Below are positions 9,614-22,324 of a DNA stretch of 29,169 nt, piece by piece (positions within the stretch are counted from its first letter, which is position 1; every line of letters starts with the position of its first letter). Both the position numbers and the translations under genes were made by a program. Below the pieces are notes generated by a model. The model saw nothing but the letters and a program-made list of their open reading frames with translations. It was not told where the DNA came from and did not search any database. The stretch is from a virus. The stretch spans positions 1-29,169 of the IMG/VR virus record IMGVR_UViG_3300010354_000428; one strand, given 5' to 3'.

Positions 9614-10558
9614 ATGGCAACTAAATTAAAATTTAACACAAATTTTGGTTTTGATGGAGATTCTGAAGGAACCCTTATAGTAGATGATATTAACGATAGA
9701 GTTGGTATTAAAACATATACTCCTGGGTATACATTAGATGTAGCTGGAGATATAAATTTTTCTGGATCTTTATATCAAAATGGAGTTGCCTTTTCTGGTG
9801 GCGGTGGCGGAGGAGGAGGCTCTGGAACATTTGATACTGGTATTACAGGATCAATTTATGTTCCAGTAACTTCTGGTATCGGCACAAATCAAACCACAAC
9901 GAATGATATTTTACAGGGTCCAGGAATTTCATATACATTTCCATCAACTGCAGGAAAAGAATATATTATAGAATCTATTCACATTGTAAATATATTCTCG
10001 AATGAATTGTATTTTGTAGCTAGGCATGATTTTAATGGTGGCTCAAATGTTCCTTTAGCTCAAAGAGTTATTATTCCATATCAAGGTGCATTACAATTCT
10101 TAGAGCAACCAATTATTGCAAATCCATCAGATACATTAAGATTTCAGGCACTTTCAAATACTAGTTCAACAGCAACAGGTATTGATGGTGGTTTAGACGC
10201 ATGGATCATATACTCAGAAAAAACTGATACTAATTATATTGGTACAGGTAAAGTCGTAAGCACTGCAGCAGGAACTGAAATATTTCAGGCATCTACAAAT
10301 CCAGCAATGCTTCAATCTATTAGACTTTGCAATTATAGTTTAAATATTGACATTGATGTTTCTATTTCAATTTATCGAGGATCTTTAGCGACAGGAGTAA
10401 GATTAGGATATTTAGCTTATAATCTTACGATTCCGAAAAATAGTGTGGTTGAAATATTACAAAAACCTGCGTATCTATCTGCAAGTGATTCCATAGTTGC
10501 TGCGGCATCATCTGCAAGTGTTTTATCAGTCACTTTATCTGGTAAATATATAGTATAG
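9614..10558 (+). CDS. Tail fibre protein with duplicated C-terminal beta domain
   Basis: 314 residues, start ATG five bases after the previous stop. The N-terminus contains RVGIKTYTPGYTLDVAGDIN followed by SGSLYQNGVAF, the standard fibre module 'vGIgT.sP.ytLdV.Gdi..tG.lyqNG..f'. A poly-Gly linker follows (residues about 61-70). The remainder appears to be two related domains of about 100 residues: 'IESIHIVN...LAQRVIIPYQGALQFLEQPIIANPSDTL' and 'LQSIRLCN...LAYNLTIPKNSVVEILQKPAYLSASDSI' (each summarised, with gaps). The duplicate suggests two stacked beta-sandwiches at a fibre tip. No catalytic motif is visible. It closes the block of fibre genes before the modification island. Confidence 0.7.
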   Translation: MATKLKFNTNFGFDGDSEGTLIVDDINDRVGIKTYTPGYTLDVAGDINFSGSLYQNGVAFSGGGGGGGGSGTFDTGITGSIYVPVTSGIGTNQTTTNDILQGPGISYTFPSTAGKEYIIESIHIVNIFSNELYFVARHDFNGGSNVPLAQRVIIPYQGALQFLEQPIIANPSDTLRFQALSNTSSTATGIDGGLDAWIIYSEKTDTNYIGTGKVVSTAAGTEIFQASTNPAMLQSIRLCNYSLNIDIDVSISIYRGSLATGVRLGYLAYNLTIPKNSVVEILQKPAYLSASDSIVAAASSASVLSVTLSGKYIV

Positions 10559-10573
10559 ACGAATTGATATTTT

Positions 10574-11233
10574 ATGTCTTTGCTAATTGCTTTGCCTTGT
10601 TACGGTGGAATCGTAAGTGATAAAACTGCTAAAGGATTATTTAATCTTGGAAAAGAACTAAGAACTGCGGGTATAGATCATGGTTTACTTACAATAGCAA
10701 ACGAAAGTTTGATTACTCAAGGGCGTTCTAAGATGGCCAATTTTTTTATGAATAATACTGAATACGAAAGAATTTTTTTTATTGATTCTGATATTGGTTT
10801 TACTTCGGAAGATGTTTTTAATCTTTTGAAGCATGATAAAGATATTGTTTGTGGAGCATATCCAATGAAGAGTATTCCATTGAGATATAATTATAACATA
10901 TCAAAACCAGAAATTTCTGAAAATGAATTAATAAAAATTGAAAATGTTGGGTTTGGTTTTGCAATGATTAAAAGAAAAGTATTTGAAGATATTGTAACAA
11001 GTTATGGTGAAGAATTAAAGTATTATCCACCATCAAACAATAGTAATTATCCACCAACAGAAAAAGAATATAATAATTCATATCATTATTTTCTAGAACT
11101 TAAGAAAGATATGAATTATCTACCAGAAGATTTTTCGTTTTTTGAAAGGGCAAAAAATGTTGGATACTCTGCTTGGTTAAATACTAATATTAGACTTGCC
11201 CATGTAGGGTCTCATGTTTTTCAAGAAGGATAA
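10574..11233 (+). CDS. Glycosyltransferase, GT-A fold
   Basis: 219 residues. It begins LLIALPCYGG, the first beta strand of a GT-A nucleotide-sugar-binding fold, and has FFIDSDIGF at residues about 68-76, whose D71-S-D73 is the DxD motif that binds the metal and nucleotide sugar. 'ITQGRSKMANFFM' (47-59) matches the 'R...iA..fL' helix of phage and fungal ANP1/MNN9-like transferases. 'CGAYPMKS' and 'GFGFAMIKRKVF' also fit. The length is that of a single catalytic domain. It is cytoplasmic, with no membrane segment. It lies four bases before the first propeller gene with AAGGA at 11226-11230 between them, which hints that it acts on that protein. Donor sugar and acceptor are unknown. Confidence 0.75.
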   Translation: MSLLIALPCYGGIVSDKTAKGLFNLGKELRTAGIDHGLLTIANESLITQGRSKMANFFMNNTEYERIFFIDSDIGFTSEDVFNLLKHDKDIVCGAYPMKSIPLRYNYNISKPEISENELIKIENVGFGFAMIKRKVFEDIVTSYGEELKYYPPSNNSNYPPTEKEYNNSYHYFLELKKDMNYLPEDFSFFERAKNVGYSAWLNTNIRLAHVGSHVFQEG

Positions 11234-11237
11234 CTAA

Positions 11238-13106
11238 ATGGCATTTGGAGTCTTTGGATTACGCAAAATTTATCTAAAACAGGTTAAGAATATAACTGAC
11301 AACAACTTTGCAAGTTGGCCAGAAACTGCTTCTTATGGATATTATGGAGGAGGATATGTAGGTCCTCCTGGAGTAACTAATTCTATTGTGAGATATGATT
11401 TTAGTAACGAAAATTTTAGTTTTCCTGGAAAAAATTTATCTGCAGCAAAATCAAGAGGTGCATCTGCATATAGTAGTCTTTATGGTTATTTTTATTCTGG
11501 ATCTCCTGGAAGTGGTGGAGTTAGTAACATTGAAAGATTAGATTTTTCTACAGAAAATATAAGTGCTTCAACAAATAATGCACCATTTGGTTCAAGAATT
11601 TTTTCTGGTGTTTCAACTAATTATTATGCATATTTTGCTGGAGGATTTACTCCTGGCACCACTAGTAAAATTACAAGATTGGATTTTTCCAATGAAATAG
11701 TAAGTGAACCAGGGAATAATCTACCTGTAGCTTCTACTACTACTTCAGTATTTAGTGATTTTTATGGATATTTTTCTCTTGGGCGTTCATTTAGTACAAT
11801 TGCAAGGATTGATTTTTCGAATGAAACTGTAAGTAATCCTGGAAAAAATTTTCCAAGTCCTAAAGATTCTTGTCCTGGAACTGCTAGTAAAGAAAATGGT
11901 TATTTTGGGGGTGGATATACAAGTCCTCCAGCAACATCATACAATTCTATCACTAAATTAAATTTTTCATCAGAAACTATAAGTACTATTCCTGCTGCAT
12001 TATCGACACTTAGAGCAAATTCTGAAACAGTTAATAATAGTTCTTATGGTTATTTTACCGCAGGATTTATATCTCCACCATTTAGTTATGTATCTAATGT
12101 AAGTAGACTTGATTTTTCGACAGAACTTACAGCATCACCAGGAAGAAATTATCCTTCTAATAATAATGGGTTGTATGGTTTTTCTGGTGGAGCATCAGTT
12201 TCTAAACAAGTTAAAACTTATGGAGCTGGATATGTTGGTGGCGGAGCCTTGGGTCCTGTTCCTGGAAGTTCTAGTACAATTACAAGACTTGATTTTTCTA
12301 ATGAAACTGCAAGTAATCCTGGAAAAAATTTACCAACCGCATATAATGCACAAGCAGCAACAGCAAGTGTTCATTACGGATATTTTTGTGGTGGTTATTC
12401 CCCTATAACACAAAGTGTTGTTATAAGACTTGATTTTTCTACTGAAAATGTAAGTTTACCTGGAAAGAATCTACCAACACAACAATATAGATTCGCAGCA
12501 TTCTCAAGTAATTCTTATGGATATTTTGGTGGAGGTTATGCTGGAGCACCTTTTTATATTCAAAATACAATATCAAGACTCGATTTTTCAAATGAAATTG
12601 TAAGTAATCCTGGAAAAACATTAATAGAAAGAAGAGGTTCCCATGCAGCGATTGCTAGTAATTCTTATGGTTATTTTGGGGGTGGAGTAGATCCAAATTT
12701 TAGTTGTAAAATTACAAGACTTGATTTTTCTAATGAAACTATAAGTAATCCTGGAAATAATTTAGCATATGCAGCCACAGATTGTGGATCTGTTCAAACT
12801 AATTTTTATGGCTATTTTTCTGGTGGTAGAAATCCAGTAGTTAGTACAGTTTCAAGACTTGATTTTTCAAATGACACTATAAGTCAACCAGGAAAAAATC
12901 TTCCCACAATAAGATTATATCATAGTGGAAATTTGTCTAATAATCAAAATGGTTATTTTATTGGTGGTAATACTGGAAATTCTCCAGTTACTGCTTATTC
13001 TTCATTTGCTAGAATAGATTTTTCTAGCGAAACCGTAACTAATATGACTACTGGTAGTTTACCAAGTACAAGACTTTGGGCCGCAGCAGTATCAAATTCA
13101 AATTAA
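11238..13106 (+). CDS. Double kelch-like beta-propeller protein (paralogue A)
   Basis: 622 residues. After an N-terminal segment (FGLRKIYLKQV, then FASWPE) come twelve repeats of about 44-52 residues. Each has an aromatic-GG start (YGYFGGG), a middle 'T-I-x-R-L-D-F-S-N-E' strand and an end 'NPGKNLP..R'. This layout, with the double glycine, the R-(L/I)-D-F strand and the LP turn, fits kelch repeats. An extra stretch after repeat 6 (FSGGASVSKQVK) splits the array into 6+6, so I infer two six-bladed propellers. The gene at 16566 has the same plan. It is probably a virion adhesin or fibre tip. No enzymatic motif is seen, and galactose-oxidase-like activity is unlikely without catalytic Cys/Tyr/His residues. 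Confidence 0.65.
   Translation: MAFGVFGLRKIYLKQVKNITDNNFASWPETASYGYYGGGYVGPPGVTNSIVRYDFSNENFSFPGKNLSAAKSRGASAYSSLYGYFYSGSPGSGGVSNIERLDFSTENISASTNNAPFGSRIFSGVSTNYYAYFAGGFTPGTTSKITRLDFSNEIVSEPGNNLPVASTTTSVFSDFYGYFSLGRSFSTIARIDFSNETVSNPGKNFPSPKDSCPGTASKENGYFGGGYTSPPATSYNSITKLNFSSETISTIPAALSTLRANSETVNNSSYGYFTAGFISPPFSYVSNVSRLDFSTELTASPGRNYPSNNNGLYGFSGGASVSKQVKTYGAGYVGGGALGPVPGSSSTITRLDFSNETASNPGKNLPTAYNAQAATASVHYGYFCGGYSPITQSVVIRLDFSTENVSLPGKNLPTQQYRFAAFSSNSYGYFGGGYAGAPFYIQNTISRLDFSNEIVSNPGKTLIERRGSHAAIASNSYGYFGGGVDPNFSCKITRLDFSNETISNPGNNLAYAATDCGSVQTNFYGYFSGGRNPVVSTVSRLDFSNDTISQPGKNLPTIRLYHSGNLSNNQNGYFIGGNTGNSPVTAYSSFARIDFSSETVTNMTTGSLPSTRLWAAAVSNSN
11334..13103 (+). repeat. Twelve kelch-like coding repeats (6+6)
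   Basis: The repeats start at YGYYGGG (residue 33) and run to the C-terminal VSNSN. The DNA repeats are partly near-identical: the 38 bases at 12717-12754 recur at 18162-18199 in paralogue B with one mismatch. Confidence 0.75.
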
Positions 13107-13109
13107 ATT

Positions 13110-13946
13110 ATGAAAAAATTTCACTTTATGTCTGGTCTTCCAAGATCAGGTTCGACTCTATTAACAGCACTACTCAATCAAAATCCAGAAATACACGCAT
13201 CTACTAATTCTCCACTTTTGGATACAATACATTATACCGAAGAATATCTTTTATATAATTCAGAACAATATAAAGCACACCCTAAACAAGAATGTGCTCA
13301 CAAGGTTCTGTCTTCTATTCCAGAAAATTATTACTTCAATACTTCACAAAATATTATTATTGACAAATCAAGAGGTTGGGTTAATCAAATAGAACATATT
13401 CAAGATTACATTACATCACAACCAAAGATTATTTGTCCAGTAAGAGATATTCAAGATATCATATCTTCATTTCTAAATCTTATTTACCATTCTAAGAAAA
13501 CATCATTCATTGATGAGGCACTAATCAAAAATGGTATAGAAATCACTAATGATAATCGTACTGATTACTTAATGTCTCCCCAAGGTATTATTGGAATGTC
13601 ATATCATGCACTTTCGGAAGCATTTCGTAAAGGTAACAATAAGTATTTGTTGTTAGTTGAGTATGATGATTTAGTAAATAACCCGCAACAAGAATTGAAT
13701 AAAATTTATGATTTTTTAGAACTTCCAAGATTTACACATACTTTTGAAAATATAAAACCAAAGTTTGATGAAAATGATGAAGTTTATAAGTTAGAAAATA
13801 TGCATATAGTAAGGCATAAAGTAGAAAAAATACATCGTGACAATTCAAAATTCTTAAGTGATTATGTAATCCGCAAATATAGTAATATGGAGTTCTGGAA
13901 AAAAAGAACTCAAACGTATTCTATTTTTGGATTATTAAGTCTTTAA
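13110..13946 (+). CDS. Sulfotransferase (PAPS-dependent type)
   Basis: 278 residues. Residues 9-18, GLPRSGSTLL, are the 5'-phosphosulfate-binding loop of PAPS sulfotransferases; the form is closest to the 'G(V/L)PRSG(T/S)TL' of the tyrosyl-protein and bacterial Sulfotransfer_3 group. Residues 109-123 (CPVRDIQDIISSFLN) give the Arg and Ser of the 3'-phosphate-binding site (R112, S119/S120). 'LLLVEYDDLVNNPQQELNKI' is the usual C-terminal helix region of the family. The length is normal. It would move sulfate from PAPS to a hydroxyl or tyrosine. It sits three bases after propeller A and before the GT fusion, so fibre residues or attached sugars are possible acceptors; this is inference. Host PAPS would be required. 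Confidence 0.8.
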   Translation: MKKFHFMSGLPRSGSTLLTALLNQNPEIHASTNSPLLDTIHYTEEYLLYNSEQYKAHPKQECAHKVLSSIPENYYFNTSQNIIIDKSRGWVNQIEHIQDYITSQPKIICPVRDIQDIISSFLNLIYHSKKTSFIDEALIKNGIEITNDNRTDYLMSPQGIIGMSYHALSEAFRKGNNKYLLLVEYDDLVNNPQQELNKIYDFLELPRFTHTFENIKPKFDENDEVYKLENMHIVRHKVEKIHRDNSKFLSDYVIRKYSNMEFWKKRTQTYSIFGLLSL

Positions 13947-13953
13947 AATTTAA

Positions 13954-13961
13954 ACTAAATA
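13954..13961 (+). promoter_or_regulatory. Putative late promoter octamer (ACTAAATA)
   Basis: Followed by AAAAC; the same ACTAAATAAAAA string occurs at 18394. Located 23 bases before the ATG at 13984. Weaker match to the late consensus than TATAAATA. Confidence 0.4.
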
Positions 13962-13983
13962 AAAACACTTACATCATTTTGAT

Positions 13984-15684
13984 ATGAAATCTGGAGCAAC
14001 TGAAAGTTCTTTTTATTATCTAAATCAATATTATTCATTTCCAAATAATATTGAAGTTTCAAGAAGTATAGAAATTTTAGCACAATCAAATAAGCAATAT
14101 AAAATACTGTGGGCACATGATAATTGTGACCAACCACAACTTTTAAGACTTCCAGAACTTGTATCACAGATTGATTTAATTGTCTGTGTATCAAACTGGG
14201 AAGCAGAACAATATATTAAATATAACCGAGCACCAGCAGATAAGATTGTAGTCATTCCAAATGGTGTTGCAGATATTTTTTGTCCCAAAACACCAAAATC
14301 AAAAACAGCAATTTATTTTTCTGGACCACATAAAGGTATCACACCGCTTCCAAAAATTTGGAAACAAGTTATTAAAAATCATCCAGATGCAAAATTAAAA
14401 GTATTTTCTTCTCATAATCTTTATGGTGAACAATATGAACAGCATTTTAAAATACCAGAACATTTAGAAGCAATTGAAGAACTTAAGTCTCTTCCTGGAG
14501 TAGAATATTCTCCATGTATTGATCGAGAACAACTTCTTCCTCATATTCAGGATGCAGCATTCTTCGTTCATCCTAACGTCTGGGAAGAAACTTTTTGTGT
14601 ATCTATGGCAGAAGCAATGGTATGTGGTTGCTATCCAATCACAAGTGATATAGGAGCACTGAAAGAAATTTCATTCAATCGTGGTAAATATATTCCCATG
14701 GATGGAAAGAATACTCCAGTTGGTTGGGAAACATCTTCAAAGTTTGTGGATGAATTCTCACAAGAACTATCAAGATGTTTTGAGTTTTTTGATAAAGAAC
14801 CACAAACATTTTATGCTGCAACAAAAGAACTTTCACAAGTTTCAAAAGATACTTATGATTGGAAAAAAATTGCAGTTATTTGGGAAAAATTGATACAAAA
14901 TTTTTTAAAAGAAGAACGACCAAAATATTATTGTATGGTACACATGAAGTGTTCGGAAAAATATACGCATCTTGCATTAGATACATTTTTCAGAAATAGT
15001 ATTTTTGAAAAACAAGATAAGTTTTTCTTGATTGATAATGACAAATCATTTACCAAAAACTATGAGAATATTACAGTAATCTCAAACGCATCTTCAAAAT
15101 CTTTTGCAGAGAATATGAATTTCATTCTTAAGCAAGCAATTATAGATGGTGTTGATTTTGTTGGATTAAATAATGATATTGCTTTCACAAAAAACTGGAA
15201 TCAAAATTTAGGTGATTTAAACTCAATTTCAATTCCATTATGTAATCAACATTTATATGGTAATTGGATAAAAAGTGAAATGGAACTTGAAGAATTTATT
15301 GGTAAAGAAGAATCACTCAATCAAATTGCTTCACAAATTATATCACATCCACAAAATCTAGCACCAAATTTAATTAAAGCATTCTATTGTTTTTATATTC
15401 CTCATGAAGTTAGTTCGAAGATTGGATTATTTGATGAAGAATTTGGGAAAGGTGGGGGAGAAGATATTGATTATAGTTTAAGAGCAGAACAACTTGGCAT
15501 TGAAACGAAGTTCAATGCTAACTCTTACTTACTTCATTTTTCCCATAGAACTTTGGATAATGAGACTAAAGAAGAAAAAGATTCGAGAACAGAACAATTA
15601 TATTTGCATTTTTGTAAAAAATGGGGTAAAGAAATTGCTGATAGAAGATTGTCTCTTGCGGTTACACAACGGTTCTCATCATAA
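13984..15684 (+). CDS. Two-domain glycosyltransferase, GT4 fused to GT2-like
   Basis: 566 residues. Residues 1-300 look like a GT-B/GT4 transferase: KILWAHDNCDQPQ (40-52), IVVIPNGV (88-95), and the donor-site motif EETFCVSMAE (201-210), an E-x7-E pair at E202/E210, followed by GCYPITSDIGALKE. The N-terminal Rossmann half is short: only about 90 residues precede IPNGV, and an upstream in-frame stop (13960-13962) blocks extension. Residues 314-566 resemble GT-A/GT2: strand 'FFLIDND', 'FVGLNNDIAF' (NND 396-398 as the DxD-like site) and 'GGGEDIDYSLRAEQLG' (491-506), the ED motif of GT2 enzymes. It may add two successive sugars. It is probably cytoplasmic. Acceptor unknown; the propellers on either side are candidates. 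Confidence 0.7.
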   Translation: MKSGATESSFYYLNQYYSFPNNIEVSRSIEILAQSNKQYKILWAHDNCDQPQLLRLPELVSQIDLIVCVSNWEAEQYIKYNRAPADKIVVIPNGVADIFCPKTPKSKTAIYFSGPHKGITPLPKIWKQVIKNHPDAKLKVFSSHNLYGEQYEQHFKIPEHLEAIEELKSLPGVEYSPCIDREQLLPHIQDAAFFVHPNVWEETFCVSMAEAMVCGCYPITSDIGALKEISFNRGKYIPMDGKNTPVGWETSSKFVDEFSQELSRCFEFFDKEPQTFYAATKELSQVSKDTYDWKKIAVIWEKLIQNFLKEERPKYYCMVHMKCSEKYTHLALDTFFRNSIFEKQDKFFLIDNDKSFTKNYENITVISNASSKSFAENMNFILKQAIIDGVDFVGLNNDIAFTKNWNQNLGDLNSISIPLCNQHLYGNWIKSEMELEEFIGKEESLNQIASQIISHPQNLAPNLIKAFYCFYIPHEVSSKIGLFDEEFGKGGGEDIDYSLRAEQLGIETKFNANSYLLHFSHRTLDNETKEEKDSRTEQLYLHFCKKWGKEIADRRLSLAVTQRFSS

Positions 15685-15687
15685 ATA
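15680..15687 (+). promoter_or_regulatory. Putative late promoter octamer (CATAAATA)
   Basis: Seven of eight match to TATAAATA, overlapping the TAA stop of the GT gene (15682-15684), 31 bases before the ATG at 15719. Confidence 0.5.
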
Positions 15688-15718
15688 AAAATAACATTAT
15701 TGAATAAATTAAATAAGT

Positions 15719-16558
15719 ATGTCTAACAATTATGAAGCAATTGCATTGGCGACATCTAAGGAAGTCTTAGATGATAGTAATGAATTTATGATTAAAGTTC
15801 TTCAAGAGGCAACTCGTTGGGAAGAAAGTGAAACAGAATTAGCCCAAGGTCGTTCAGATTTCCAGATTGAAAAGTTTATTATTCATGATAATTTTACAAT
15901 TCCATCAGCATTTAAAGCAGCACTCATTAACCGTAGAAGTGTAGCAGAAGGTCTTTTACAACAAGTTATTGAAGCAAAAAGAGCAGCAAGAGAGTTTCAT
16001 TATAAGTGGGATGGGAAAGATAAGACTCAACCAATTTGGTGGAAAACCCGTGAAGGAGGTGAAGAACTTGCTTGGTATGATATTGATGAGTTTCATTTTC
16101 ATCGTATGCTTGAGGGATTAAATCGTGGATTTAAGGCAGCAGTAGAAGAACTTGAGTGCTTTGATAAACTAATCAATCGGTTGATTCAATTAAATGATGG
16201 AAAATTGGTTTCTAGAGAACAATATAATGAAGACCAACCAAATTACTGGGAGCGTAGGCTTGCTAATCAATCGTTAGATGATTTACTTTCTGCAAGAACT
16301 GGTGTAAATGCTGGTAATATTCGTTCCATGCGACGAGCAAGTGCTCCTACAGTATTAACTGATGATATAAATCGTACTAAAGGTAGTTTTGGGGATCCTA
16401 GTAATCCTATGGACTTCTTGAATAGTCTTCAACAATCAGTTGCTGCTGGTATTGAAGAAATTACAGGAGTGGGCCAACAACTTCTCCGTGGTCTTGAAGA
16501 ACAAGAGCAAAAGCAAATTCCCCAATCATTATTCAATCCAGATTTAAAAGTAGAGTAG
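15719..16558 (+). CDS. Helical protein of unknown function
   Basis: 279 residues, not recognised with certainty. It is mostly helical, with many charged residues and no membrane segment or signal peptide. Features: an acidic N-terminal region, a Trp-rich stretch (REFHYKWDGKD, PIWWKTREGG, LAWYDIDEFHFHRML; residues about 90-138), a basic segment (NIRSMRRASAP near 200-215) and a Gln/Glu-rich C-terminus (GLEEQEQKQIPQ). I have a weak memory of similar proteins annotated as hypothetical in T4-like cyanophages beside fibre genes. It is seven bases before propeller B, so it could be an adaptor, chaperone or virion part of that fibre. Codon use (CGT, GGT, CTT) looks a little less AT-biased than in the fibre genes. 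Confidence 0.6.
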   Translation: MSNNYEAIALATSKEVLDDSNEFMIKVLQEATRWEESETELAQGRSDFQIEKFIIHDNFTIPSAFKAALINRRSVAEGLLQQVIEAKRAAREFHYKWDGKDKTQPIWWKTREGGEELAWYDIDEFHFHRMLEGLNRGFKAAVEELECFDKLINRLIQLNDGKLVSREQYNEDQPNYWERRLANQSLDDLLSARTGVNAGNIRSMRRASAPTVLTDDINRTKGSFGDPSNPMDFLNSLQQSVAAGIEEITGVGQQLLRGLEEQEQKQIPQSLFNPDLKVE

Positions 16559-16565
16559 AAACAAA

Positions 16566-18398
16566 ATGCCCCAGTTTGTTGGAGATGTTTTTGGATTAAG
16601 TTCTGTTTATGAAAAACAAGTCACAAATGTAGAGAATAGAAAGTTTGATAGTTGGCCAGAAGGTGCTACTTACGGTTATTATGCTGGAGGAACAACACCA
16701 AATGCTGGTATATCTAATATAAGTCGTCTTGATTTTTTAACAGAAACAACAAGTCAGCCAGGAAAAAATATGCCTGGAGCTGCACAATTATGTGGAACAG
16801 TAGAAAATAGTTCTTATGGATATTTTGCAGGTGGGTTTAATCCAGGAGCAACATATTTTTGCACTATTATGCGACTTGATTTTTCTAGTGAAACTATAAG
16901 TCTTCCTGGAAAAAATTTTTCAAATAATAGAGCTGCAATTTCTTCTGGGGCTTCAACTAGTAGTTATGGATATTTTGGTGGAGGAGAAACATTTCCTCCA
17001 TCAATTGCGATTAATACAATCACAAGAATTGATTTTTCTAGCGAAACTATAAGTAATCCAGGAAATAATTTACCAACAACAAGATACAATCCAGGAGTAG
17101 TTAAAAATTACTCATATTCTTACTTTGGAGGTGGAGGATTAACTACAATATCAAGGCTTGATTTTTCCAATGAAACTATAAATAATCCAGCAAATAATTT
17201 CCCTGCTGTACGATGGAACGCACGGGGAGTTTCTAGTTTAGCATATGGATATTTTGGTGGGGGAGGATGGACCACATATGCTAAACTTGATTTTTCTAAT
17301 GAGTTAATAACTGTTCCTGGAGGTAGTCTGCCCTCATTAACATTAGAAAGTGCTTCGTCAAGTAATCAAAATGGATATTTTGCTGGAGGATTTGTTTCTG
17401 CAGCAGCTCCATACAGATCAAGTTCAATATCAAGACTCAATTTTTCAACAGAAACTGTAACAGCTTTAAGTTCTAAATTAATAAATGATGTTGAAAGATT
17501 ATTTGCACTTTCTGGTGGCTCATCAATCTATAGAGTAAATGGATTCAAGACTTATGGATATTTTGTTGGTGGATCAAATCCAACATCAACTTCCACAATT
17601 GATAGAATTGATTTCACTACAGAAAGTTTTAATTTACCAGGAAATAATTTACCTACAGGAAGAAGTACTTTAAGTATGGTTGCAAGCAATTCTTATGGAT
17701 ACGCTGGAGGAGGTGCTTCTAATTTAGTTTTCCGACTTGATTTTTCTAATCAAACAATAAATCAACCAACAAATAATTTACCACAAATTTTTACTGGTGC
17801 TGCATCATTTTCTAGCAATAATTATGGTTATTTTGGCGGTGGATATGTATCCCCTAATATATATCAATCATCAATTAGAAGAATTGATTTTTCAAACGAG
17901 ACATCAAATAATTTACAAAATAATTTACCATCAACTATAGCTTATACTACTTCAACTTCAAATCATTTATATGGATATTGGACTGGAGGAAATTTTCCAC
18001 ATGTTAGTACTGTAAGAAGAATTGATTTTTCCAATGAAACTATAAGTCTTCCTGGAAAAAATTTACCTTCAAATAATTCTTTTGCTGGAGGAATTTCAAA
18101 TAATTCTTATGGATATTTTGGTTATGGATTCACAGGAGTAAGTAGAATTAATACTGTCACCAGACTTGATTTTTCTAGTGAAACTATAAGTAATCCTGGG
18201 AAAAATTTCCCCCAATCAAAAAATGGTATTGCAGCAAACACCAGTAGTTTTTATGGGTATTTTGCTGGTGGATATGATGGAGCATCTTTTACTGCTGTAA
18301 CTTCTAGGCTTGAGTTTGCAACAGAAAATGTAAATAATATACCAGGAGTTTTACCTACTGCAAGATCTGCTGTGGCAGGAGTTTCAAACTCAAACTAA
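16566..18398 (+). CDS. Double kelch-like beta-propeller protein (paralogue B)
   Basis: 610 residues and the same plan as the protein at 11238: an N-terminal segment (DVFGLSSVYEKQVTN, then FDSWPEGATYGYY) and twelve repeats of about 42-50 residues with YGYFGGG, 'I-x-R-(L/I)-D-F-S-(N/S)-E-T' and 'PGKNLP'. A longer stretch after repeat 6 (LFALSGGSSIYRVNGFK) again gives 6+6, so two six-bladed kelch-like propellers are inferred. It ends GVSNSN, as paralogue A ends AVSNSN. Repeats 4, 5 and 8 are short, which shows blade-loop variation. It is probably a second adhesin or a fibre partner of A. It is followed by two 2-oxoglutarate oxygenase genes, and its repeated Pro and Asn positions are possible substrates (speculative). 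Confidence 0.65.
   Translation: MPQFVGDVFGLSSVYEKQVTNVENRKFDSWPEGATYGYYAGGTTPNAGISNISRLDFLTETTSQPGKNMPGAAQLCGTVENSSYGYFAGGFNPGATYFCTIMRLDFSSETISLPGKNFSNNRAAISSGASTSSYGYFGGGETFPPSIAINTITRIDFSSETISNPGNNLPTTRYNPGVVKNYSYSYFGGGGLTTISRLDFSNETINNPANNFPAVRWNARGVSSLAYGYFGGGGWTTYAKLDFSNELITVPGGSLPSLTLESASSSNQNGYFAGGFVSAAAPYRSSSISRLNFSTETVTALSSKLINDVERLFALSGGSSIYRVNGFKTYGYFVGGSNPTSTSTIDRIDFTTESFNLPGNNLPTGRSTLSMVASNSYGYAGGGASNLVFRLDFSNQTINQPTNNLPQIFTGAASFSSNNYGYFGGGYVSPNIYQSSIRRIDFSNETSNNLQNNLPSTIAYTTSTSNHLYGYWTGGNFPHVSTVRRIDFSNETISLPGKNLPSNNSFAGGISNNSYGYFGYGFTGVSRINTVTRLDFSSETISNPGKNFPQSKNGIAANTSSFYGYFAGGYDGASFTAVTSRLEFATENVNNIPGVLPTARSAVAGVSNSN
16671..18395 (+). repeat. Twelve kelch-like coding repeats (6+6)
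   Basis: Runs from the first YGYYAGG (residue 36) to the C-terminus. The DNA repeats are shared with those at 11334-13103 and lie in the same orientation, so the two arrays form long imperfect direct repeats around the sulfotransferase-GT cassette. Confidence 0.75.
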
Positions 18399-18401
18399 AT
18401 A
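18394..18401 (+). promoter_or_regulatory. Putative late promoter octamer (ACTAAATA)
   Basis: Overlaps the TAA stop (18396-18398) of propeller B, 22 bases before the ATG at 18424. Same ACTAAATAAAAA string as at 13954. Confidence 0.4.
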
Positions 18402-18423
18402 AAAATATATACAATATTCTATT

Positions 18424-19083
18424 ATGAATGATATTCTTGCTAATGTTTTAATTCAGCCTAAAGTTGTAACACCAGAAGGTTTGAAGTTTTTAACTGATTA
18501 TATGAGACAATCCCATAAAGAAAGAATGTCAGTTTTTGATGCAGAAAAAAGTGATGAGACAAGGCAGAGAGAATCAAAAATAGATAAGAATATTAGAGAT
18601 GTGGAATGTGCCGATTTAATTCCAGTCTTTTCTCAAGTAAAAGATTTACTTGAAAATATTGTAACAAATGTTATAAATCCTTTTTATGGATTTGAAGTAA
18701 GAGATAGCGAAGATCCACAATTACTCTGTTATAGTCCAGGTGGACACTATAAACCCCATAATGATGCAGAAGGTTTGTGGACAAATCCTGATGGAACACA
18801 AGTATGGAAGAAAACAATAGACAGAGATTTATCAACTGTTCTTTTTTTAAACGATGATTTTGAGGGTGGGTATTTTTCTTTTCCAGATTTAAGAATTAAA
18901 ATCAAACCAGAGCCAGGACTTCTGGTTTGTTTTCCATCATCGAGATGGTTTACGCATATGGTAGAACCAGTAATCTCTGGAAATAGATATACTCTAGTAA
19001 CTTGGATGAGAGTTAAAGGATTTAAAACTAAAGATGAGATTGATAAAGAACTTTCAGACAAATATGGTGTAGAAGTTTATTAA
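18424..19083 (+). CDS. 2-oxoglutarate/Fe(II) oxygenase, prolyl 4-hydroxylase-like
   Basis: 219 residues. The double-stranded beta-helix core is clear: 'LLCYSPGGHYKPHNDAEG' (100-117) holds the HxD metal ligands H112 and D114, 'STVLFLNDDFEGGYFSFPD' (137-155) is the following strand pair, 'PEPGLLVCFPSSRWFTHMVE' (162-181) gives the distal ligand H178, and R188 in GNRYTLVTW is the 2-oxoglutarate-binding Arg at the expected ten-residue spacing. This is the P4Hc pattern common in cyanophages. It hydroxylates a substrate, often Pro in a protein, using O2 and 2-oxoglutarate. The substrate here is unknown. Its stop codon overlaps the stop of the opposite-strand oxygenase. Confidence 0.85.
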   Translation: MNDILANVLIQPKVVTPEGLKFLTDYMRQSHKERMSVFDAEKSDETRQRESKIDKNIRDVECADLIPVFSQVKDLLENIVTNVINPFYGFEVRDSEDPQLLCYSPGGHYKPHNDAEGLWTNPDGTQVWKKTIDRDLSTVLFLNDDFEGGYFSFPDLRIKIKPEPGLLVCFPSSRWFTHMVEPVISGNRYTLVTWMRVKGFKTKDEIDKELSDKYGVEVY

Positions 19084-19658
19084 TAATTTAATAGGTCAAA
19101 ACATTTTTGATTTTTATCATAAGCATATTCAGAACAAGGACCATTTTTTCTTACAAAGTGCAAAAATAATTGCATAAATCTATCATTTTTATGAGTTCTT
19201 AAAGGACTTCTCCAGTGAGGAACTTCCATTCCAAGATAAGCAAGACCACATCCAATTGGAGTTATCACTGATTGTTTATTTCCTTCCAAATCTTTTAATT
19301 TAATAGGCCATGCAGTATCACCACAAATATTCATCGTGACTGATACTTCACATGATGGCCTATCAGTATGACAATTCATCCACCCTTTATTGTGATATGT
19401 TGTGGAAAACCAATATGAAGGTATAAGTTCTTCGCCAACTAAATTTTCTAGTGTTGGTTGAATTCTTTTCATAACAAAAGCACAGGCTGGTGGTGCGTAG
19501 CAGGTTAATACATTACCTCTTTCTGGATCGAAGTGGGTTTTTAATCCTCCAAGATCTTTTAGTGCCCCACTTAAATTTTTATATTTAATTTGTATTGCTT
19601 CTTCTTTTGTAATTATATCGGGAATATAATACCACCCTTTTTTCAAAAAGTTATTCAT
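19080..19658 (-). CDS. 2-oxoglutarate/Fe(II) oxygenase-like protein on the opposite strand
   Basis: 192 residues from the ATG at 19658. Longer in-frame starts exist (19721, 19826), but the upstream part is low-complexity, and 19826 would overlap the start of gp13. Residues 95-102 (NCHTDRPS) give HxD ligands H97 and D99. 'VPHWRSPL' (147-154) gives distal H148, and R160 in DRFMQLFLHFV is a likely 2-oxoglutarate contact. 'WPIKL' and 'GLAYLGMEVPHW' match a viral and bacterial hydroxylase subgroup ('HxDRxxCE...WPl...PHWR'). It is distinct from the neighbour at 18424 and not a recent duplicate. It is the only minus-strand gene in the window, convergent with 18424 and divergent from gp13. Substrate unknown. 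Confidence 0.75.
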   Translation of the reverse strand: MNNFLKKGWYYIPDIITKEEAIQIKYKNLSGALKDLGGLKTHFDPERGNVLTCYAPPACAFVMKRIQPTLENLVGEELIPSYWFSTTYHNKGWMNCHTDRPSCEVSVTMNICGDTAWPIKLKDLEGNKQSVITPIGCGLAYLGMEVPHWRSPLRTHKNDRFMQLFLHFVRKNGPCSEYAYDKNQKCFDLLNY

Positions 19659-19807: not shown

Positions 19808-20638
19808 GTGGCAAAACCATCATCAAGATTAGAATTAAAAAATTATTGTTTACGTAAATTAGGATTTCCTATTTTAGAAATTAATATTGATGAAGATCAA
19901 TTAGATGATTTGGTAGATGATACTATTCAATTTTTCCAAGAACATCATTATGATGGTATAGAAAGGATGTATTTAAAGCATCAAGTTACTGCTGATGATG
20001 TAGAAAGATTCACTTCATCAAATGAAGAAAATAGTACTACTAATCCATATGGTGCTACTTGGGAAAATAGAAGAAACTTTATTGAAGTTCCCGATCATGT
20101 TATTGGTATATCAAAAGTGTTTGGGGTTTCATCCAATTGGGTTCGTAATGATTTGTTTGGTTTAAGTAATCAATATTTTTTGATGGACGTATTTTCGTTT
20201 TCATCTGGTTTTGCTTTTGGAAATTTTGATATGACAAATTATTATATGATTCGTCAGTATTTCGAAACCTTGGATATGGTTGTTAATACTGGTGCTTTAG
20301 TAGAGTATAGATTCAACAAGAGACAAGATAGATTGTTTATTGACATTGATTCAAGTAGATTAACGGAAGGAAACTATATTTTAATTGAATGTTACAGAGC
20401 TTTAAATCCAGAAGAATTTAATCAAATTTATAATGATACCTTTGTAAAAAAATATTTGACTGCATTAATAAAAAAACAATGGGGGCAAAATTTAACTAAG
20501 TATAAAAATATACAACTTCCAGGTGGCATTAGTATGAATGGAGAAGAATTATTAATGCAAGGAACTGCTGAAGTTGCAGAACTAGAATCAAAAATGCTTA
20601 CAGATTATTCATTACCACCATTAGATGTAGTAGGATAA
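19808..20638 (+). CDS. gp13: Neck protein gp13
   Basis: 276 residues from a GTG start (T4 gp13 is 309). AKPSSRLELKNYCLRKLGFP, then ILEINIDEDQLDDLVDDTIQ and FFQEHHYDGIERMYLKHQVT, is the well-conserved N-terminus of gp13 in T4-like marine phages. In T4, gp13 and gp14 form the neck collar that seals the filled head and joins it to the tail. 'FNKRQDRLFIDIDSSRLTEG' is another family segment near residue 170. The gene opens the conserved block 13-14-15-16-17-18-19 and follows its own late-promoter octamer. It is two bases from gp14. Confidence 0.93.
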   Translation: MAKPSSRLELKNYCLRKLGFPILEINIDEDQLDDLVDDTIQFFQEHHYDGIERMYLKHQVTADDVERFTSSNEENSTTNPYGATWENRRNFIEVPDHVIGISKVFGVSSNWVRNDLFGLSNQYFLMDVFSFSSGFAFGNFDMTNYYMIRQYFETLDMVVNTGALVEYRFNKRQDRLFIDIDSSRLTEGNYILIECYRALNPEEFNQIYNDTFVKKYLTALIKKQWGQNLTKYKNIQLPGGISMNGEELLMQGTAEVAELESKMLTDYSLPPLDVVG

Positions 20639-20639
20639 A

Positions 20640-21518
20640 ATGCCAACCAGTCATTATTTTCCACAACGTTATGGTGGAAATAAATCAGAACAAAGATTAA
20701 TACAATCTTTAGCAGATGAACAAATAAAATTATTTGGAAGTGATGTGTATTATCTTCCTAGAAAAATATTACAAGAACAAGCGTTAAACGATGTAATTTT
20801 TAGTGAGTATACAGAAAGTATAATCATAGAAATGCTATTGCAAAATGTGCAAGGTTTTGATGCAAATTCTGAATTTATTAGTAAATTTGGATTAAAAATT
20901 ACAGATGAAGTAACATTTATTGTTTCTCGATATAGGTGGGAACAGGAACAGAGCAAGTTAAATCTAAACGCTCAAGGAAGACCTAATGAAGGAGATTTGA
21001 TATATTTACCAATAACAAAATCTTTATATGAAATTAAATTTGTAGACAGAAGAACTCCATTTTATCAATTAGGAGAAATATTTTTTTACACTATAACAGC
21101 AGAAATTTATGAACTTGGAGATGATAATATTGATACTGGTATAAGAGAAATTGATGAAATTGAAGAAATGCTGGCTCAAGAAATGATTTTAAACTTGTAT
21201 GCAGGAGGATCTTTAGACTTTTTAGTTGGGGAAAGAGTTACTGCTCAAATAAGTGGTGTCGAAGCTGTTGTTAGCGAATGGAATGTCAACACTAGAACAT
21301 TAAAAGTAATTGATAGAACTGGATTATTTGGAGAAAACGAAGGTATTTCTGGACAAACTTCGGGAGCACAGTGGATAGTAGATACGTATAGTACATTTGA
21401 TGATACTAATTCATTGACTGATCAAAATAAATATATAGAAGATAATGCAGATGATTTTCTTATTTTTAATGAAGAAAATCCATTTGGCGAATATGGAAAT
21501 ATTCCAGGGAGCTTTTAA
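20640..21518 (+). CDS. gp14: Neck protein gp14
   Basis: 292 residues (T4 gp14 is 256). The N-terminus SHYFPQRYGGNKSEQRLIQS, then LADEQIKLFGSDVYYLPR and LNDVIFSEYTESIIIEMLLQ, is diagnostic of gp14, as is 'FVDRRTPFYQLGEIFFYTIT'. With gp13 it closes the packaged head and gives the platform for the tail. The C-terminal part (residues about 180-292) carries an acidic linker and a small 'ERVTAQISGVEAVVSEWN' beta module. The stop overlaps the gp15 start by one base (TAATG at 21516-21520), so translation is probably coupled. Confidence 0.93.
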   Translation: MPTSHYFPQRYGGNKSEQRLIQSLADEQIKLFGSDVYYLPRKILQEQALNDVIFSEYTESIIIEMLLQNVQGFDANSEFISKFGLKITDEVTFIVSRYRWEQEQSKLNLNAQGRPNEGDLIYLPITKSLYEIKFVDRRTPFYQLGEIFFYTITAEIYELGDDNIDTGIREIDEIEEMLAQEMILNLYAGGSLDFLVGERVTAQISGVEAVVSEWNVNTRTLKVIDRTGLFGENEGISGQTSGAQWIVDTYSTFDDTNSLTDQNKYIEDNADDFLIFNEENPFGEYGNIPGSF

Positions 21519-22324
21519 TGTTAGGACCACATTTTTATAACGAAGCAATACGAAAAACTGTAGTTTCTTTTGGAACTTTGTTTAATAATATACAAATTAA
21601 CAAAAAGGATCCAACTACTGGAGATATTATCAATGTAGAAAGGGTGCCAATTACTTATGGTCCTAAGCAAAAATTTCTATATAAATTAACAGAAGAACAA
21701 CAGTTAGATAGTAGAAGAATATCTCTTGTCTTACCAAGACTATATTTTGAGATGACTAATATTTCTTATGATTCTGCTAGAAAAGTTAGTCCAGTTCAAA
21801 AATATAAAAATATAGTAAATGATGAAGGAAACGAAGTAAGAGTTCAATACGTACCAGTACCATACAATATAGATTTTGAATTAGGATTAATTTCAAAATC
21901 TCAAGATGATGCTTTACAAATTATCGAACAAATTTTACCATATTTCCAACCAAATTTTAATGTCACTATAAATTTTATTCCTGAAATGGATGAAAAGAGA
22001 GATGTTTCTATAATTTTAAATGATATTAATTATGAAGATGATTGGGAAGATAGTTTCATGCAAAGAAGAAGTATTATATGGACGTTAAATTTTTCTGCAA
22101 AAAGTTATATCTATGGTCCATTTAATCAAGCAAGTATTATTAGAAAAGCAATCATATACGAAACACTTGGTGATTATAATGAAAGTAAGAGAAATGCTTC
22201 TTTTACTTACTCACCAAAAGCATTAGAAGATAAAAATAATGATAATGTAATAAATCAATTAGATGATGCATTGATAATGCCAGATGATGATTTTGGATTT
22301 AATGAATTTGTAGAATTTTTATAG
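21518..22324 (+). CDS. gp15: Tail sheath stabiliser and completion protein gp15
   Basis: 268 residues (T4 gp15 is 272). The start MLGPHFYNEAIRKTVVSFGT, then LFNNIQINK, and later 'PVPYNIDFELGLISKSQDDA', 'QIIEQILPYFQPNFNVTINF' and 'LNDINYEDDWEDSFMQRRSI' are hallmark gp15 segments. In T4 it caps the tail tube and sheath at the head-proximal end and allows head joining. The C-terminus is acidic (MPDDDFGFNEFVEFL). The order next to gp14 is exactly as in T4. It ends six bases before gp16. Confidence 0.93.
   Translation: MLGPHFYNEAIRKTVVSFGTLFNNIQINKKDPTTGDIINVERVPITYGPKQKFLYKLTEEQQLDSRRISLVLPRLYFEMTNISYDSARKVSPVQKYKNIVNDEGNEVRVQYVPVPYNIDFELGLISKSQDDALQIIEQILPYFQPNFNVTINFIPEMDEKRDVSIILNDINYEDDWEDSFMQRRSIIWTLNFSAKSYIYGPFNQASIIRKAIIYETLGDYNESKRNASFTYSPKALEDKNNDNVINQLDDALIMPDDDFGFNEFVEFL

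Follow-up and report, generated by a model that had tools for sequence, protein, structure and literature searches.

Genes for a sulfotransferase, glycosyltransferases and 2-oxoglutarate (2OG)-Fe(II) oxygenases alternate with genes for hypervariable Kelch propellers in a conserved locus, which is carried by a widespread group of viruses whose hosts are cyanobacteria of the sea and other waters. Both the locus and the way it is built from modules are matters of observation. Beyond this, we infer, at about even chances, a tail-adhesin locus whose enzymes act on a feature of virion proteins that stays constant, the candidate substrate. Of the readings considered, modification of virion adhesins has the best support, followed by remodelling of host glycans and a passive recombination hotspot. 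The preliminary description of this DNA had proposed such a system for fibre or propeller proteins: the finding of one conserved modular enzyme/propeller locus among tail-fibre genes speaks for that proposal, and for two of the residues it named the case is weaker: tyrosine sulfation by the rules of protein-tyrosine sulfotransferases (TPST) is not supported, and the variation at the Asn fits a turn preference better than a sequon. No description of the enzyme–propeller locus was found in the open-licence literature. As the locus ties sulfotransferases and 2OG oxygenases to hypervariable adhesins, it offers a substrate that can be tested in a phage already isolated, S-SKS1.

Layout of the locus

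The window, that is, the whole stretch of DNA analysed, is the virus fragment IMGVR_UViG_3300010354_000428 (IMG/VR) of 29,169 nt. By its sequence it is a T4-like cyanophage fragment: gp13, gp14, gp15, gp16, gp17 and a sheath gene (gp18) are found in its right half, and its best DNA matches are Synechococcus phages. The left part encodes one large structural protein along with several proteins resembling fibres, and an island of eight ORFs sits between the tail-fibre genes and gp13–gp18. The fibre gene fib314 (9614–10558, plus strand) usually lies just before the block, some relatives having long collagen-like versions of it. It is followed on the plus strand by genes for a GT-A glycosyltransferase (10574–11233), Kelch propeller A (11238–13106), a PAPS sulfotransferase (ST, 13110–13946), a GT4 glycosyltransferase with a GT2-like C-terminal half (GT4-GT2, 13984–15684), a helical protein (HEL, 15719–16558), Kelch propeller B (16566–18398) and a 2OG-Fe(II) oxygenase (OG1, 18424–19083). 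A second 2OG-Fe(II) oxygenase gene (OG2, 19080–19658) lies on the minus strand, and the core structural genes gp13, gp14 and gp15 (19808–22324, plus strand) flank the block. All eight ORFs listed in the preliminary description are intact, with intact catalytic motifs, and lie in a structural region as it had said. Its picture of a gene row with almost no gaps is accurate for the seven plus-strand ORFs, which are 3–37 nt apart, and has to be amended for OG2, which is not in the operon because it lies on the minus strand, convergent with OG1. The T4-type late promoter TATAAATA occurs at four sites against 5.7 expected by chance. A search for a diversity-generating retroelement gave no match to the reverse transcriptase profile PF00078 in 10 records, mostly fragments.

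Recurrence and modular order in relatives

IMG/VR was searched with ST, HEL and a propeller alignment, and the window proteins were then mapped onto all loci. An alignment was required as the propeller query, since a single propeller sequence matched only a near-identical sibling. Dozens of IMG/VR contigs carry the block, as do the isolate S-SKS1 and the single-cell virus AG-345-L05. Co-occurrence of the enzymes with the propellers, which the preliminary description had put forward as a check, is borne out in close relatives: propellers are present in all 37 contigs with a close ST (loci L009–L045, at least 49% identity) and in 80 of 80 contigs with HEL, and each of the 15 further contigs found through propellers has a block enzyme. 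Enzymes independent of propellers, named there as the contrary outcome, do occur in the case of OG2 and of more distant homologues of the other enzymes, which speaks in part against the proposal. After removal of duplicates about 96 loci remain, in which a propeller is most often preceded by HEL (82 cases), ST (51) or GT-A (38); recurrence on this scale places the pattern far beyond chance.

The basic module consists of an enzyme gene followed by a Kelch propeller gene, the enzyme being GT-A, ST, or GT4-GT2 together with HEL. The series of modules ends in a 2OG oxygenase and usually also in a tail-fibre-assembly chaperone (u0; PF16778 / phrog_4912 ‘tail fiber assembly’), which most relatives have and the window lacks. 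Complete loci most often run in the order fib314, GT-A, propeller, ST, propeller, GT4-GT2, HEL, propeller, 2OG oxygenase, chaperone and a minus-strand 2OG oxygenase. This order permutes, ST and its propeller standing either before or after the GT4–HEL–propeller module, and some loci add PF13759 oxygenases, DUF6445, a carbamoyltransferase or an FkbM methyltransferase. Proteins of the DUF6445 family, for which PHROGs gives the label ‘minor coat protein’, are repeatedly found next to propellers and oxygenases (L044 9367–9999, and relatives).

Between ST and GT4, a whole propeller is present in relatives (L021, L159 and others) and a 95-amino-acid remnant in L010–L015. The 37 nt that separate the ST stop codon from the GT4 start in the window (13947–13983) contain AAACTAA, the common 3′ end of propeller genes, and after it the spacer that follows the propeller in relatives. 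The window is a deletion derivative that has lost one propeller and kept the scar.

Conserved enzymes and hypervariable propellers

The median identity between phages is about 78–80% for ST, HEL, GT-A and OG2, 65% for OG1, 52% for GT4-GT2 and 48% for the propellers. The dN/dS ratio is about 0.04–0.2 for the enzymes and about 0.4–0.75 for the propellers, whose pairs are best matches and not certain orthologues. The enzymes are under purifying selection and the propellers are hypervariable.

These data bear on the idea that propeller repeats merely drive exchange and that functionally unlinked accessory genes gather between them. Such a hotspot would account for the permuted modules, the common 3′ end sequence and spacers of the propellers, the deletion scar in the window and the clustering of propellers by phage. 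Random cargo would, however, turn over, yet contigs that have diverged widely still have a near-constant enzyme set under strong purifying selection; we therefore regard a mere hotspot as unlikely. It could also be imagined that each enzyme modifies only the propeller encoded after it, as complete loci have one propeller per enzyme module. Propellers do not track the adjacent enzyme, which makes dedicated enzyme–substrate pairs highly improbable: those that follow the same enzyme are 48% identical, as are those that follow different enzymes, against 56% within one phage, and the propeller tree groups largely by phage. Moreover, the window retains ST without a propeller of its own.

Structure of the propellers

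Kelch repeats were detected in both propeller genes, with 12 blades per gene. A model of propeller B built from 47 sequences (pLDDT 83.7) has two six-bladed rings and a short low-confidence N-terminal helix, and the same arrangement is expected for propeller A from its homology to B, so that a tandem pair of six-bladed Kelch propellers is the best model for either gene. The blades are four-stranded, of about 45–50 amino acids, with a GG motif and six to a ring, as in Kelch proteins, and the propeller profile matches solved Kelch protein chains (E to 3e-17) and many viral Kelch models. The frame of the blade is near-invariant (YGYFGGG...TI.RLDFSNET.S.PG.NLP), and the loop between GGG and TI is variable in length and rich in Pro, Ser/Thr and aromatic residues. 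A rigid frame with variable loops is the pattern expected of adhesins whose binding surfaces can be exchanged; any action of the enzymes on propellers would then be directed at the frame and not at particular loops. From the location of the genes and by analogy with the Kelch proteins of other phages, the propellers are probably part of the virion.

Each propeller has about 10 X-Pro-Gly sites, and Pro-Gly is found 14 and 11 times in the two propellers of the window. N-E-T is found in 561 of 936 blades, and Ser/Thr stands at +2 in 93% of blades with the Asn and in 73% of those without, the blades not being independent of one another. Since the sequon Asn is replaced almost only by Ser/Thr, its variation fits a turn preference better than N-glycosylation. 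Under eukaryotic-type substrate rules, none of 78 propeller tyrosines has a TPST-like acidic context of at least three D/E within five residues.

The enzymes

ST matches PF13469 (E 2e-18). Its R12, G14 and T16 in the 5′-PSB loop and R112 and S120 in the 3′-PB are invariant in 73 of 73 sequences, as befits a PAPS sulfotransferase. Its only PDB sequence matches are TPST1/2; they are weak (E 0.0015) and lie mainly in the cofactor loop. The catalytic Glu of TPST, which we take to be E99 of TPST2, was mapped onto ST through the TPST alignment and falls on N33, a variable position (N, E, I, L, S and others). Tyrosine sulfation of the TPST type is unsupported, the catalytic Glu not being conserved and the propeller tyrosines lacking acidic contexts. 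Distant STs in IMG/VR are mostly without these propellers, and that of S-SCSM1 adjoins the recombination genes gp46/gp47. Glycine-rich fibre tips lie beside 15 of 48 distant STs against a background of 130 of 668, which is suggestive only. In two loci (L142 14551–18339 and L004 30302–34182), a second, diverged ST, then two unknown proteins and a carbamoyltransferase, lie outside the propeller modules. In another (L047 7472–14887, and L046–L051), two PF13759 oxygenases, an ST and a third oxygenase stand in a row without propellers and precede a large protein resembling virion proteins. The role of phage sulfotransferases was still unclear in a study of OM43 phages (2023; PMC10580990).

OG1 matches 2OG-FeII_Oxy_3 (PF13640, E 3e-15) and has the H-x-D...H motif and the 2OG-binding Arg of this family; H112, D114, H178 and R188 are each invariant in 56 of 56 close homologues. 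It is prolyl-hydroxylase-like, its best PDB matches being prolyl 3-hydroxylase 1, 5c5t (labelled prolyl 4-hydroxylase and presumably a chlorella-virus enzyme) and PiuC-type hydroxylases. In S-SKS1 and one IMG/VR contig (L002 6202–6890, L135 15470–16158), OG1 is split by differing single-base deletions in short base runs, either sequencing errors or independent frameshifts; the S-SKS1 propellers are likewise fragmented.

In OG2 the Fe-binding H-x-D...H is invariant in 45 of 45 homologues and the Arg is present in 32 of 45. Public records name its family ‘ferrochelatase’ (phrog_2954 / phrog_3531; many cyanophages, e.g., NC_020851 SWZG_00283), but judging from these residues the family looks like a 2OG-Fe(II) oxygenase. 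Of the 154 phage records with a homologue, nearly all lack these propellers; OG2 is a common cyanophage gene and probably not specific to the block. Cyanophages commonly carry 2OG oxygenases, most of them unexplained; 253 phage records were matched.

Hydroxylation of collagen-like proline was considered and rejected, as the collagen-like fibres encoded at the start of the block in several relatives are nearly Pro-free and do not track an extra 2OG oxygenase (OG5). Those with long G-X-Y runs have 0–2 GXP each; X-Pro-Gly is common in the propellers instead. Fibres of the fib314 type with 67–100 consecutive G-X-Y triplets and almost no proline are encoded in L155 (1804–4890), L120, L147 and L159.

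GT-A matches phrog_1574 (E 8e-34) and, under the Pfam cut-off, PF00535 (E 0.015); its DxD motif, D71/D73, is conserved in at least 95% of sequences. The GT4 domain matches PF13692 (E 6e-9) and has the EX7E motif of GT4 enzymes (E202, E210), and the GT2 half of the fusion gives a weak profile match to phrog_2456 (E 3e-4). In the sets searched, HEL was always accompanied by propellers, and no HEL was found in cellular genomes by the patterns used. Its model is a low-confidence coiled-coil hairpin (pLDDT 66.6) with the coiled-coil hairpin of prefoldin as the best PDB match (E 0.2), which is only a hint of a chaperone-like fold.

Possible targets of the enzymes

Given the GT2 and GT4 families, which often make LPS or capsule, the enzymes might instead remodel host surface glycans (LPS or exopolysaccharide) late in infection, for example to block re-adsorption of progeny to debris or to exclude rivals; they would then adjoin the adhesins because receptor and adhesin co-evolve. 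The carbamoyltransferase and FkbM methyltransferase of some loci, typical modifiers of sugars and small molecules, a nucleotide-sugar epimerase near the S-SRM01 region and the lack of a diagnostic acceptor site in the propellers also point this way. Against it, enzyme genes repeatedly alternate singly with propellers and the fibre-assembly chaperone, a prolyl-hydroxylase-like 2OG enzyme is present in nearly every locus, and HEL, which is fused to GT4 in AG-345-L05, accompanies only propellers. On balance we consider host-glycan remodelling somewhat unlikely.

Modification of virion proteins is favoured in addition by the nearest PDB sequences of ST and OG1, which are protein modifiers. In outline, the propellers would be late-made fibre tips or decorations touching the host, and the enzymes would work inside the infected cell, ahead of assembly, on a feature that stays constant in the propellers or in neighbouring virion proteins. 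The oxygenase would hydroxylate side chains, for which each propeller offers its X-Pro-Gly sites, the glycosyltransferases would add sugars, ST would sulfate a glycan or a side chain, and HEL might assist folding or assembly. Such decoration could stabilise, charge or shield the adhesin, whichever loops it presents. In its most specific form, a phage assembly line that hydroxylates, glycosylates and sulfates (and in some relatives carbamoylates or methylates) the constant frame of swappable propeller adhesins, the scheme is a tentative possibility. If it is true, loop-based variation of host range would be uncoupled from a conserved chemical coat, and hydroxylation and sulfation would join the known chemistry of phage particles.

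Comparison with known systems

In mycobacteriophages, phage-encoded glycosyltransferases glycosylate the virion (Freeman 2023, cited in PMC12619734). The island likewise encodes glycosyltransferases, but action on virion proteins, shown there, is only inferred here; capsid and tail tube are decorated there, against propeller adhesins here, and the cited account describes no set of ST and 2OG oxygenases. Chlorella virus prolyl 4-hydroxylase (Eriksson 1999, cited in PMC9301287) is also a virus-encoded 2OG hydroxylase and acts on peptides; it belongs to a eukaryotic virus with another candidate substrate, whereas the island's collagen-like fibres are almost Pro-free. In phage CBB, a jumbo phage, the Kelch protein CBB_552 was shown in the virion by mass spectrometry (PMC5259590). 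It is six-bladed like the propellers of the island; unlike in the island, no paired modification enzymes are described for jumbo-phage Kelch proteins in that account.

The isolate S-SKS1 (Llyrvirus; SWZG_00283–00291 and the start of the record) has the same propellers, HEL, an ST of 78% identity and 2OG oxygenases. It is already sequenced, but its propellers and HEL are annotated as hypothetical; NrdC, not gp13, follows the locus, and GT-A and GT4 were not found in the stretches examined. In S-SRM01 (NC_070963), propellers, a 2OG oxygenase, an ST and a GT-methyltransferase come after baseplate and fibre genes as in the island, but the propellers are of the RCC1 type, unmatched by the Kelch profile, and HEL has no match. 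The tail-fibre cluster of S-ShM2 (L163 1025–18311) is directly preceded by a tryptophan halogenase and followed by DUF6445, a weak HEL relative (phrog_1409) and three 2OG oxygenases, and is a candidate for another fibre-modification region in ordinary cyanophages.
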